A stretch of DNA of 64,000 nt, taken from assembly GCA_015069575.1 (NCBI GenBank), contig SVIH01000003.1, positions 1-64,000 of the forward strand, written 5' to 3'. Of the stretch, positions 22,641-26,215 are shown piece by piece. The DNA is from Clostridiales bacterium (GTDB lineage: Bacteria; Bacillota; Clostridia; Christensenellales; QALW01). A program made the translations under genes and the position numbers. Position 1 is the stretch's first letter. Each line of letters opens with the position of its first letter. The notes beneath the pieces are model-generated. The model was not told where the DNA came from. It saw nothing but the letters and a program-made list of their open reading frames with translations, and did no database searches.

Positions 22641-22677
22641 TACTATGATTCTATATATTTTAGTGAGGATATTAATT

Positions 22678-23760
22678 ATGAAAAAGTTAAATGTTGGTAT
22701 TATCGGTGCAACCGGTATGGTTGGACAGCGTTTTATAACTCTGCTTGCTGACCATCCTTGGTTTAATATTGTTACCTTGGCAGCTTCTGCTCGTTCAGCA
22801 AACAAAACTTATAAAGAGGCAGTTGGTGACCGTTGGGTTATGGATATGCCCGTGCCCCAGTTTATAAATGATATGATGGTGCTTGATGCTACAGGCGATG
22901 CAGAAAAAATTGCTTCAATGGTTGATATGGTTTTTTGCGCAGTTGATATGCCAAAAGATGAAATCCGTGCATTAGAAGAAAAATATGCTAAACTTGAAGT
23001 TGCAGTTATTTCAAACAACTCTGCACACCGTGGTACTGCTGATGTGCCAATGATTATCCCTGAACTTAACGCTGATCATTCTGAAGTTATTACTGCACAA
23101 AAAATGCGCCTTGGCACAAAGAAAGGCTTTATTGCAGTTAAATCAAACTGTTCACTTCAAAGTTATGTGCCTGCACTTTTCCCTCTTTCAAAGTTTGGTA
23201 TTACCAAAGCTCTTGCTTGCACATATCAGGCAATTTCGGGTGCAGGTAAAACTTTTGAGCGTTGGCCTGAAATGGTAGATAACCTTATTCCATTTATTGG
23301 CGGCGAAGAAGAAAAAAGCGAAAAAGAACCTTTGAAAATCTGGGGTAAAGTTGAAAACGGTGTAATCGTGCCAAGTGAAACACCCCACATTACAACACAG
23401 TGCTTCCGTGTTCCTGTTTCAAACGGACACACCGCTGCAGTTTTTGTTAGTTTTGAAAACAAGCCTTCAAAGGAAGAAATCCTTGAAATATGGAAAAACT
23501 TTAAAGGTGATCCGCAGATTTTTAATCTTCCCTCAGCACCAAAGCAGTTCCTTAACTACTTTACAGAAGATAATCAACCACAGATTAAAAATTGCCGTGA
23601 ATTAGAAGGCGGTATGGCTGTTTCCATTGGTAGATTAAGAGAAGATACACAGTATGATTACAAGTTTGTTTGTATGTCACACAACACATTACGCGGTGCA
23701 GCAGGCGGTGCAGTTTTAATGGCTGAACTTCTTGTAGCACAGGGTTTTATTGAGAAGTGA
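22678..23760 (+). CDS. asd: Aspartate-semialdehyde dehydrogenase (archaeal/fungal-type)
   Basis: A 360-residue NADP-dependent enzyme that reduces aspartyl phosphate to aspartate semialdehyde. The Rossmann motif is GIIGATGMVGQRF; the catalytic cysteine is in KSNCSLQ (about residue 154) and the active-site histidine in PVSNGHTAAV. SNCSLQ and the overall spacing match the archaeal/fungal class rather than the classic bacterial SNCST class. I choose ATG 22678 with GTGAGGA upstream over the earlier in-frame ATG at 22645. It is the first gene of a lysine/diaminopimelate operon. Confidence 0.93.
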   Translation: MKKLNVGIIGATGMVGQRFITLLADHPWFNIVTLAASARSANKTYKEAVGDRWVMDMPVPQFINDMMVLDATGDAEKIASMVDMVFCAVDMPKDEIRALEEKYAKLEVAVISNNSAHRGTADVPMIIPELNADHSEVITAQKMRLGTKKGFIAVKSNCSLQSYVPALFPLSKFGITKALACTYQAISGAGKTFERWPEMVDNLIPFIGGEEEKSEKEPLKIWGKVENGVIVPSETPHITTQCFRVPVSNGHTAAVFVSFENKPSKEEILEIWKNFKGDPQIFNLPSAPKQFLNYFTEDNQPQIKNCRELEGGMAVSIGRLREDTQYDYKFVCMSHNTLRGAAGGAVLMAELLVAQGFIEK

Positions 23761-23765
23761 GAATT

Positions 23766-24656
23766 ATGAGAAAAAGTACTATTTTTACAGGCAGTGCCAC
23801 TGCTTTAATTACACCTTTTACAAAAGACGGTGTTGATTTCGAAGCTTTTAAGCGTTTAATTGATTTTCAGATTGAAAACGGAACCGATGCTCTTGTTGTT
23901 TGCGGAACCACCGGTGAACCTGCAACAATGACTTATGAAGAAAGAGCCAGTGTTGTTAAGTTTGCTATTGATTATATTAACAAACGCGTTCCTGTTATAG
24001 TTGGAACAGGATCAAATGCAACACATATTGCAGTAAGCAATTCAAAGGTTGCTTACGAAGCAGGCGCAGATGCTCTTTTAGTTGTTACACCCTATTATAA
24101 TAAATGCACACAGGAAGGTTTATTCCGCCATTTTGAAGCAGTTTGCTCTGCTACCCCTTTGCCTGTTATTTGTTATAGTGTTCCTGGCAGAACAGGTGTT
24201 AACATCACTCCTGAAACATTAGAAAGGCTTGCTACACTTGAAACTATGACTGCTATTAAAGAAGCAAGCGGAAGCATGGATCAGATTACTGATATATGCG
24301 CACGCGTTAAGGATAAATTAGATGTTTATTCAGGTGATGACGGTTTAATTTTACCTATTCTTTCTGTTGGCGGAAAAGGCGTTATAAGTGTTGCATCAAA
24401 CATTGTACCAAACGAAGTACATAATCTTTGCCAGAACTTTTTTGATGGCAAAATAAACGATGCAACTGATATGCAATTAAAACTTTATCCCCTTGTTAAA
24501 GCACTTTTTTGTGAGGTTAATCCTATCCCTGTAAAAACTGCTGCTTCATTAATGGGATTTGGCGAATGTAATTTAAGGCTTCCCCTTTGTAATATGAGTG
24601 ATAAAAACCTTGAATATCTTAAAAATGAAATAAAAAAGTTCGGTATTCAATTTTAA
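23766..24656 (+). CDS. dapA: 4-Hydroxy-tetrahydrodipicolinate synthase
   Basis: A 296-residue TIM-barrel lyase that condenses pyruvate with aspartate semialdehyde. GTTGEPATM is the substrate loop, the catalytic tyrosine lies in CYSVPGRTGVN (Y about 136), and the Schiff-base lysine is in TAIKEASG. ATG 23766 is preferred, with GTGAG 5 bases upstream; a GTG at 23757 would also be in frame and would overlap asd. It lies 5 bases after asd. Confidence 0.95.
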   Translation: MRKSTIFTGSATALITPFTKDGVDFEAFKRLIDFQIENGTDALVVCGTTGEPATMTYEERASVVKFAIDYINKRVPVIVGTGSNATHIAVSNSKVAYEAGADALLVVTPYYNKCTQEGLFRHFEAVCSATPLPVICYSVPGRTGVNITPETLERLATLETMTAIKEASGSMDQITDICARVKDKLDVYSGDDGLILPILSVGGKGVISVASNIVPNEVHNLCQNFFDGKINDATDMQLKLYPLVKALFCEVNPIPVKTAASLMGFGECNLRLPLCNMSDKNLEYLKNEIKKFGIQF

Positions 24657-24674
24657 TTTTACGGGAGGACAGTT

Positions 24675-25883
24675 ATGTTAAGAGTTATTCTTTCCGGTTG
24701 TATGGGTAAAATGGGTAGGGTTATTATCTCTGAAACCCAAAAAAATGATGATTTTTTAGTTGTTGCCGGTGTTGATAAAATGGCACAAAATGCATCTGGA
24801 TTTGATTTTCCTGTTTACAGTGATATTTCAAAGTGTAAAGAGAAAGCTGATGTTATTATTGACTTTTCTCGCCCTGAAGCATTACCTCAACTTTTACGCT
24901 ATGCCCAAAAAAATCATTTACCTATGGTTCTTGCTTCAACAGGATATAATGCCAATGATATAAGCGCCATTGAATTTGCTTCTGAAAATGTTGCAATTAT
25001 GCGTTCATCAAATATGTCCGTTGGTATCAACTTATTAATGGAACTTTCAAAATCAGCAACAAACATTTTACATAGCAATTTTGATATTGAAATTGAAGAA
25101 AGGCACCATAATCAAAAGGTTGATGCACCTTCAGGCACAGCAATTATGCTTGCAGATGCTATTAATCAGGCCGCAGGTGGTGATCTTGAATATGTTTATG
25201 ACCGTCACGAATCAAGAACTGCACGAACAAAGCGTGAAATTGGTATGCATGCTTTAAGGGGCGGTACTATTACAGGTGAACATTCTGTTGTTTTTGCAGG
25301 AAGTGATGAAGTTATCGAACTTACTCACAAAGCTTATTCAAGAAACATTTTTGCATTAGGCGCATTAAGGGCAGCAAAGTTTATTGTTAATATTCCTTGC
25401 GGTCTTTATAATATGGGCAGCCTTTTAACTCAGCAAAATATTGTTACAAATGCATATTCCTCAGAATCTGATGCAATAATATCAATAAGCAATATTAAAA
25501 ATCCTTCGCTTATAAGTGCAATATTCAGGCTTTTGAAAGAAAACGAAATTATGGTTGATATTATCAGCCAGACTGTTCCTGTTAACAGCATCTATACCCT
25601 TTCATTTTCAGTATCAAAGCCCCTTGCACACAAGGCTTTTGAGTTAATTAAGACACTTTTGAATGACGAAATTATCGATATACTTGAGCATATTGCAAAA
25701 GTTACCATTGAAGGTAGCGGTATGGCTCACCATGCCGGTGTTTCAGGTGATATTTTTGATTCGCTTCAACAAAAAAATATTCCTGTTTTACTTATTACAA
25801 CAAGTGAAACGAAGATTACCTGCTGTATTCCTGTTGAATATAAGGATGCGGCATTAGAAGCCCTTAAAGAGTGCTTTACATGA
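24675..25883 (+). CDS. dapB: 4-Hydroxy-tetrahydrodipicolinate reductase fused to two ACT domains
   Basis: A 402-residue protein, against about 250-270 for ordinary DapB. Residues 1-252 are a complete DapB: SGCMGKMGR NADPH loop, ASTGY, catalytic H134-H135 and K138 in ERHHNQKVDAPSG, and GEHSVVFAG. Residues about 265-402 read as the tandem ACT module of aspartokinase: ISNIKNPSLISAIFRLLKEN and IAKVTIEGSGMA, then GVSGDIFDSLQQKNIPV, ITTSETKITCCIPVEY and ALKECF. In aspartokinase that module binds lysine or threonine. The simplest inference is that DapB here is feedback-regulated by an amino acid. No stop, frameshift or gap separates the parts. GGGAGGAC lies 6 bases before ATG. Confidence 0.93.
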   Translation: MLRVILSGCMGKMGRVIISETQKNDDFLVVAGVDKMAQNASGFDFPVYSDISKCKEKADVIIDFSRPEALPQLLRYAQKNHLPMVLASTGYNANDISAIEFASENVAIMRSSNMSVGINLLMELSKSATNILHSNFDIEIEERHHNQKVDAPSGTAIMLADAINQAAGGDLEYVYDRHESRTARTKREIGMHALRGGTITGEHSVVFAGSDEVIELTHKAYSRNIFALGALRAAKFIVNIPCGLYNMGSLLTQQNIVTNAYSSESDAIISISNIKNPSLISAIFRLLKENEIMVDIISQTVPVNSIYTLSFSVSKPLAHKAFELIKTLLNDEIIDILEHIAKVTIEGSGMAHHAGVSGDIFDSLQQKNIPVLLITTSETKITCCIPVEYKDAALEALKECFT

Positions 25884-25884
25884 T

Positions 25885-26164
25885 ATTAACAAAACCATTA
25901 TAACTTAAATCAGTTGTAAAATGTAAAATTTATGTTTTAACTGTGTTAAAGCCCTTGATAATATTGACCATATTATCTGCGGGCTTTTCCTTGTTATAAC
26001 AAGAATTTTATCATTTTTCAATCTGCGACCTTAAACTGCTCAATTTGGGTGAGATTTGGGTGCGAAGGACGCGTTAAGGCAGGTCGCCTTAAAAGGACGC
26101 CAAACCCAAATATGCCTAAATTCAGCAGTTTAAGGTTGGTTCAAGTTATAATGGTTTGGTTAAC
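25885..26164. repeat. 280-bp nested inverted-repeat element (MITE-like)
   Basis: The 332-base gap after dapB is almost filled by this element. Its ends are 22-bp inverted repeats with 20 matches (25885-25906 and 26143-26164; shared core AAACCATTATAACTT). Inside are further palindromes: the hairpin at 25947-25988, a perfect 14-bp CTTGTTATAACAAG (25990-26003), a perfect 13-bp arm pair ACCTTAAACTGCT (26028-26040) with 26124-26136, ATTTGGGT (26054-26061) with 26104-26111, and TTAAGGC/GCCTTAA (26074-26092). It has no ORF worth calling. It begins one base after the dapB stop. It could be a miniature transposable element or a large folded RNA; no target duplication is clear. Confidence 0.55.
25947..25988 (+). 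terminator. Probable terminator of the asd-dapA-dapB operon
   Basis: AAAGCCC (25948-25954) pairs with GGGCTTT (25981-25987), and inside it GATAATAT with ATATTATC. Only four T follow the stem, so it may be weak. It lies within the inverted-repeat element. Confidence 0.5.
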
Positions 26165-26215
26165 ATAAGGGCGAACGAAAGTTCACCCATAAATTTATAA
26201 ACAGGAGAGAAGACA

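Follow-up and report, generated by a model that had tools for sequence, protein, structure and literature searches.

The asd-dapA-dapB locus and its fused gene

In the window, that is, the whole stretch of 64,000 nucleotides analysed here, asd, dapA and a dapB gene extended by a tandem ACT module lie consecutively on the forward strand. The features of this operon are the following:

22678..23760, forward strand: asd, aspartate-semialdehyde dehydrogenase, an open reading frame which served as the Asd seed for finding the syntenic genes in related loci
23757..24656, forward strand: dapA, an open reading frame with Arg, by alignment, at position 56 (E. coli numbering)
24664..24668, forward strand: GGAGG ribosome-binding site of the fused gene, read directly in the sequence
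24675..25427, forward strand: DapB catalytic part, residues 1-251 (TIGR00036, PF01113, PF05173, and an AlphaFold model matching DapB structures)
25434..25880, forward strand: tandem ACT module of the lysC-type aspartokinase, residues 254-402 (PF22468, PF13840, aspartokinase models, PDB aspartokinase chains, and the beta-alpha pattern of the AlphaFold model), with ACT1 at about residues 264-337 and ACT2 at about 338-402
25881..25883, forward strand: stop codon of the fused gene, read directly in the sequence

The first ATG listed for asd is at 22645, the likely start being 22678. Regarding control at the RNA level, such as a lysine riboswitch, no Rfam match was found in the window. Directly after the stop codon of the fused gene there is a MITE-like element of about 280 bp (25884-26166) with imperfect terminal inverted repeats, and elsewhere in the genome contigs C9 and C22 carry near-full copies of it with 85-93% identity.

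The fused gene is an uninterrupted open reading frame (24675-25883) encoding a single protein of 402 aa. Its DapB part is complete, since TIGR00036 scored 210 bits (cut-off 122) and residues 1-251 aligned to positions 1-269 of the 270 of the model. The cofactor (nucleotide) motif GCMGKMG, which fits GxxGxMG, and the active-site motif EERHHNQKVDAPSGTA, which fits HHxxKxDAPSGTA, are both present, and the key positions of these motifs are invariant in the alignment of the fused family. The protein is probably a working DapB.

The first-pass annotation had described this gene as a DapB fused to a tandem ACT module of aspartokinase type. The TIGR00036, Pfam and aspartokinase-model matches bear this out, as does the recurrence of the fusion in many genomes. 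Residues 338-401 were above the Pfam cut-offs for ACT_9 (75 versus 27 bits) and ACT_7 (41.6 versus 27 bits), and ACT1 alone gave no best stretch above a Pfam cut-off. The whole tail (about residues 253-401) aligned over its full length with the aspartokinase ACT pair (NF005155, E=7e-24, positions 249-401 of 407), well above what chance would give, so that the C-terminal tail indeed matches ACT profiles as that annotation supposed. It also matched the solved aspartokinase regulatory regions 3l76, 2dt9 and 2dtj. The kinase domain itself is missing: Pfam gave no AA_kinase match in the fused protein, and TIGR00657 aligned only at model positions 292-441, with 73.7 bits, below its cut-off of 208.7.

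In the AlphaFold model (mean pLDDT 87.8) the DapB fold is succeeded by two ACT units of beta-alpha pattern, the relative placement of the domains not being reliable (pTM 0.67). When this model was searched with Foldseek, DapB structures ranked first and the C. glutamicum aspartokinase next. No chain that the family profile matched in the PDB spans both DapB and ACT. An internal start yielding a free ACT product, as in lysC alpha/beta genes, was rejected for the fused genes: of the 60 inspected, none has a Shine-Dalgarno-like sequence upstream of the GLYxM methionine.

Distribution of the fusion

In the window's order we sampled 297 genomes, and the fused gene was present in at least 58 of them, from at least 17 families; the count takes those listed rows whose frame stays open up to residue 376 or further. 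This order is probably Christensenellales, since its genome G050 matches a named Christensenellaceae MAG with full identity over the compared stretch. A class-wide sample of Clostridia added 19 more genomes from seven further families. The fusion is genuine, and both old and widespread. Named carriers include Caldicoprobacter oshimai, C. algeriensis and a Mahella sp. MAG, together with many Clostridiales MAGs, and nearly all the loci read had the asd-dapA-dapB context. Two fused genes (L083 and L085), which group as sisters in the ACT tree, come from contigs assigned by binning to Spirochaetales and Desulfobulbaceae; either transfer or misbinning is possible.

The module is eroded in L054, L056, L018 and L188 and absent from some lineages, which means that its function is dispensable there. 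We also considered whether the long open frames of the DapB-only genomes could be other fusions. They turned out to be upstream read-through only, except in L188/L229 (genome G068, same order), where a strongly diverged DapB tail of about 135 residues, without an ACT profile match, looks like an eroded ACT pair.

Free ACT genes, operon lysC and the origin of the module

Three arrangements of the operon were found:

i) asd-dapA-dapB with a full lysC downstream, at a distance of about 20 bp to 2 kb, as in Acetobacterium, Lutispora and Alkalibacter.

ii) asd-dapA-dapB-ACT, where a free ACT-pair gene comes directly after dapB, as in Monoglobus, Ruminiclostridium papyrosolvens and many MAGs. The free ACT open frames have 156-179 codons, three of the four examples read have a ribosome-binding site, and in several genomes the ACT gene is in the same frame as dapB, one or two stops past it.

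iii) asd-dapA-[dapB-ACT], the fusion itself.

That the same two parts are two genes in one operon and one protein elsewhere points to a shared function.

We built a tree of 96 ACT pairs, 40 fused and 12 free among them, with SH-aLRT support. All 40 fused ACTs fell in a single clade (97) and all 12 free ACTs in another (95). Both joined a set of Clostridial lysC-type ACTs, many of which come from dap operons, in a clade (99) set apart from the other aspartokinases, including the window genome's own. In the DapB tree the DapBs accompanied by free ACTs grouped together (98); three rows labelled DapB-only inside this clade were reclassified as free-ACT. Fused and DapB-only genes were interleaved within the window's order, suggesting several losses of the module.

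Three amino-acid kinases are encoded in the assembly (1.59 Mb, 22 contigs, 96% complete); one of them is an aspartokinase, on contig C15. Thus, the earlier remark on the absence of aspartokinase holds for the operon, which has no lysC, but not for the genome. The suggestion that the aspartokinase might have lost its own ACT domains has to be abandoned, because this enzyme, of another subfamily (PRK09034), is full length (439 aa) and keeps its ACT pair. The module has therefore not simply moved, and to judge from the ACT tree the event looks like the recruitment of a different, lysC-type ACT pair and not a transfer from the present aspartokinase.

The genome also encodes lysA (diaminopimelate decarboxylase) and homoserine dehydrogenase, so a single aspartokinase supplies the lysine branch as well as the threonine/methionine branch, and a sensor placed on the lysine branch would make sense. 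DapB had been called a branch step, which needs correction: the branch-point step is DapA and DapB is the next one.

DapA next to fused genes

Position 56 of DapA has been related to feedback, His or Glu marking lysine-inhibited enzymes and Lys or Arg insensitive ones (PMC5109050). The DapA of the window, with Arg56, is accordingly predicted to be lysine-insensitive. Beside fused genes, position 56 was Lys or Arg in 50 of 62 DapAs and His in none of them. Beside free ACT genes (e.g. L038, L111) it was His in all 37 readable cases, and position 84 was mostly His too, unlike in the DapAs beside fused genes. The DapAs of DapB-only genomes were mixed across the class, and within the window's order 21 of 27 had Lys or Arg. 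Since this dominance extends to DapB-only genomes of the order, it is not specific to the fusion. Fused ACT and lysine-insensitive DapA thus do not strictly go together: the contrast is seen against the free-ACT genomes but fails against the DapB-only genomes of the order. The pattern would fit a move of control from DapA to DapB, but it is confounded with ancestry.

Interpretation

Several sensor residues of the ACT pair are kept. For the C. glutamicum aspartokinase, mutations at Q298, S381 and E382 are listed as changing its feedback by lysine (PMC10464499). Among the effector-site positions of that enzyme, the window protein keeps I272, D294, Q298, N372, S381 and E382; D274 is missing, A279 is Ile and T361 is Ser. 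In 71 fused genes, D294 was kept in 65, Q298 in 63, S381 in 70 and E382 in 60.

The best-supported reading is that this DapB would directly sense an aspartate-family product, given the conservation of the fusion, the retained sensor positions and the presence of the module beside dapB as a free gene in other Clostridia. We think it probable that a lysC-type ACT pair, having lost its kinase, was joined to DapB and regulates it by lysine or a relative of lysine. The three arrangements suggest that the kinase part of an aspartokinase would have been lost first, leaving a kinase-less ACT module, and that this remaining sensor would then have been joined in frame to dapB. A plentiful end product of the aspartate family would bind the ACT sites; lysine is the likeliest ligand because the closest models are lysC-type. 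Binding would change the packing of the ACT domains and so alter the activity of the DapB tetramer. The effect would most likely be feedback inhibition of the lysine/diaminopimelate branch, sparing threonine and methionine. A broader proposal, to which we give somewhat less than even chances, is that in the window's order and several other lineages of Clostridia the lysine branch is controlled by its end product at DapB and not at DapA, the sensor having been captured from an operon aspartokinase and the free ACT beside dapB being the same sensor acting in trans.

The alternative that survives best keeps an allosteric DapB and changes the effector to meso-diaminopimelate (DAP), threonine, or lysine and threonine jointly. 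We regard it as possible though clearly less likely. The aspartokinase ACT pairs bind Lys, Thr or both (according to the structure titles, both in C. glutamicum 3aaw and Thr in 3ab2), and the window protein departs from the C. glutamicum pattern at D274 and A279. Moreover, control by DAP at DapB would suit a cell whose wall requires DAP. However, the ACT tail fits the lysC-type PRK06635 models (E=7e-24) far better than PRK08210 (E=4e-13), which we take to be the DAP-sensitive DapG type.

It is unlikely that the module is a relic, or an addition that serves oligomerisation or stability without sensing a ligand. ACT domains can dimerise without ligand, and the degenerate or missing modules of some lineages would agree with such a role. 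Nevertheless, the ACT part compared with that of the congener G001 gave a dN of 0.29 and a dS of 1.17, which indicates purifying selection and not pseudogene drift, and the retention of the sensor positions D294, Q298 and S381 in most of the fused genes also speaks against it.

Slightly less probable still is that the module acts as the regulatory subunit of a separate aspartokinase or of DapA, with DapB as a scaffold. There is a precedent in the alpha2beta2 aspartokinases, where a free ACT-pair subunit joins the kinase (C. glutamicum structures), and free ACT genes do occur beside dapB. However, the aspartokinase of this genome, a member of another subfamily, already has an ACT pair, and the physical linkage that is conserved is with dapB and not with aspartokinase.

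Finally, a frameshift, a missing stop or an assembly error that joined two genes, as the related genomes with the same content split by stops could suggest, is refuted by the recurrence of the fusion, with a consistent junction, in dozens of independent genomes that include isolates (Caldicoprobacter) and single-contig genomes.

Relation to known systems

A DapB regulated through its fused ACT pair would matter mainly because lysine control is placed by textbooks on aspartokinase or DapA. If true, a DapB with an aspartokinase sensor, spread over a whole clade, would be a third control point, at a step not usually thought to be regulated. The series of operon lysC, free ACT gene, fused ACT and lost ACT would also be a clean natural one for studying how sensor domains move between enzymes of one pathway, and such a control point would bear on the supply of lysine and cell-wall precursors in common gut bacteria. 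The protein-naming models cover the DapB part only, so pathway models are likely to miss the ACT module.

We found no report of a DapB-ACT fusion in the open full-text literature or among the solved structures. The domain fusion is real and conserved, with a clear evolutionary series, and apparently unreported. As a kind, ACT-regulated enzymes of amino-acid synthesis are already known, and DapB-ACT adds a variant.

Four known systems are close to it. With DapB (TIGR00036; E. coli 1arz/1dih) it shares the complete catalytic and tetramerisation domains, the active-site and cofactor motifs and the dap operon context. However, DapBs that have been solved or curated stop at about residue 250-270, whereas the window protein runs on into the ACT pair. 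With the regulatory region of LysC-type aspartokinases, or their beta subunit (C. glutamicum 3aaw, 2dtj; T. thermophilus 2dt9; PRK06635), it shares the tandem ACT pair end to end, with D294, Q298, S381 and E382, but it has no kinase domain and carries the pair on DapB. The free 'ACT domain-containing protein' beside dapB (Monoglobus pectinilyticus WP_102365209.1; Ruminiclostridium papyrosolvens) has the same module and operon position and a neighbouring clade in the ACT tree. It differs in being a separate gene with its own ribosome-binding site, in which SETKI is mostly replaced by SEVDI or AETEI. Lastly, the lysine-inhibited DapA (E. coli DHDPS) would share the purpose, lysine control of the branch past aspartate semialdehyde, although it does so in another enzyme and at another site, and the DapA of the window, with its Arg56, is predicted to lack this inhibition.
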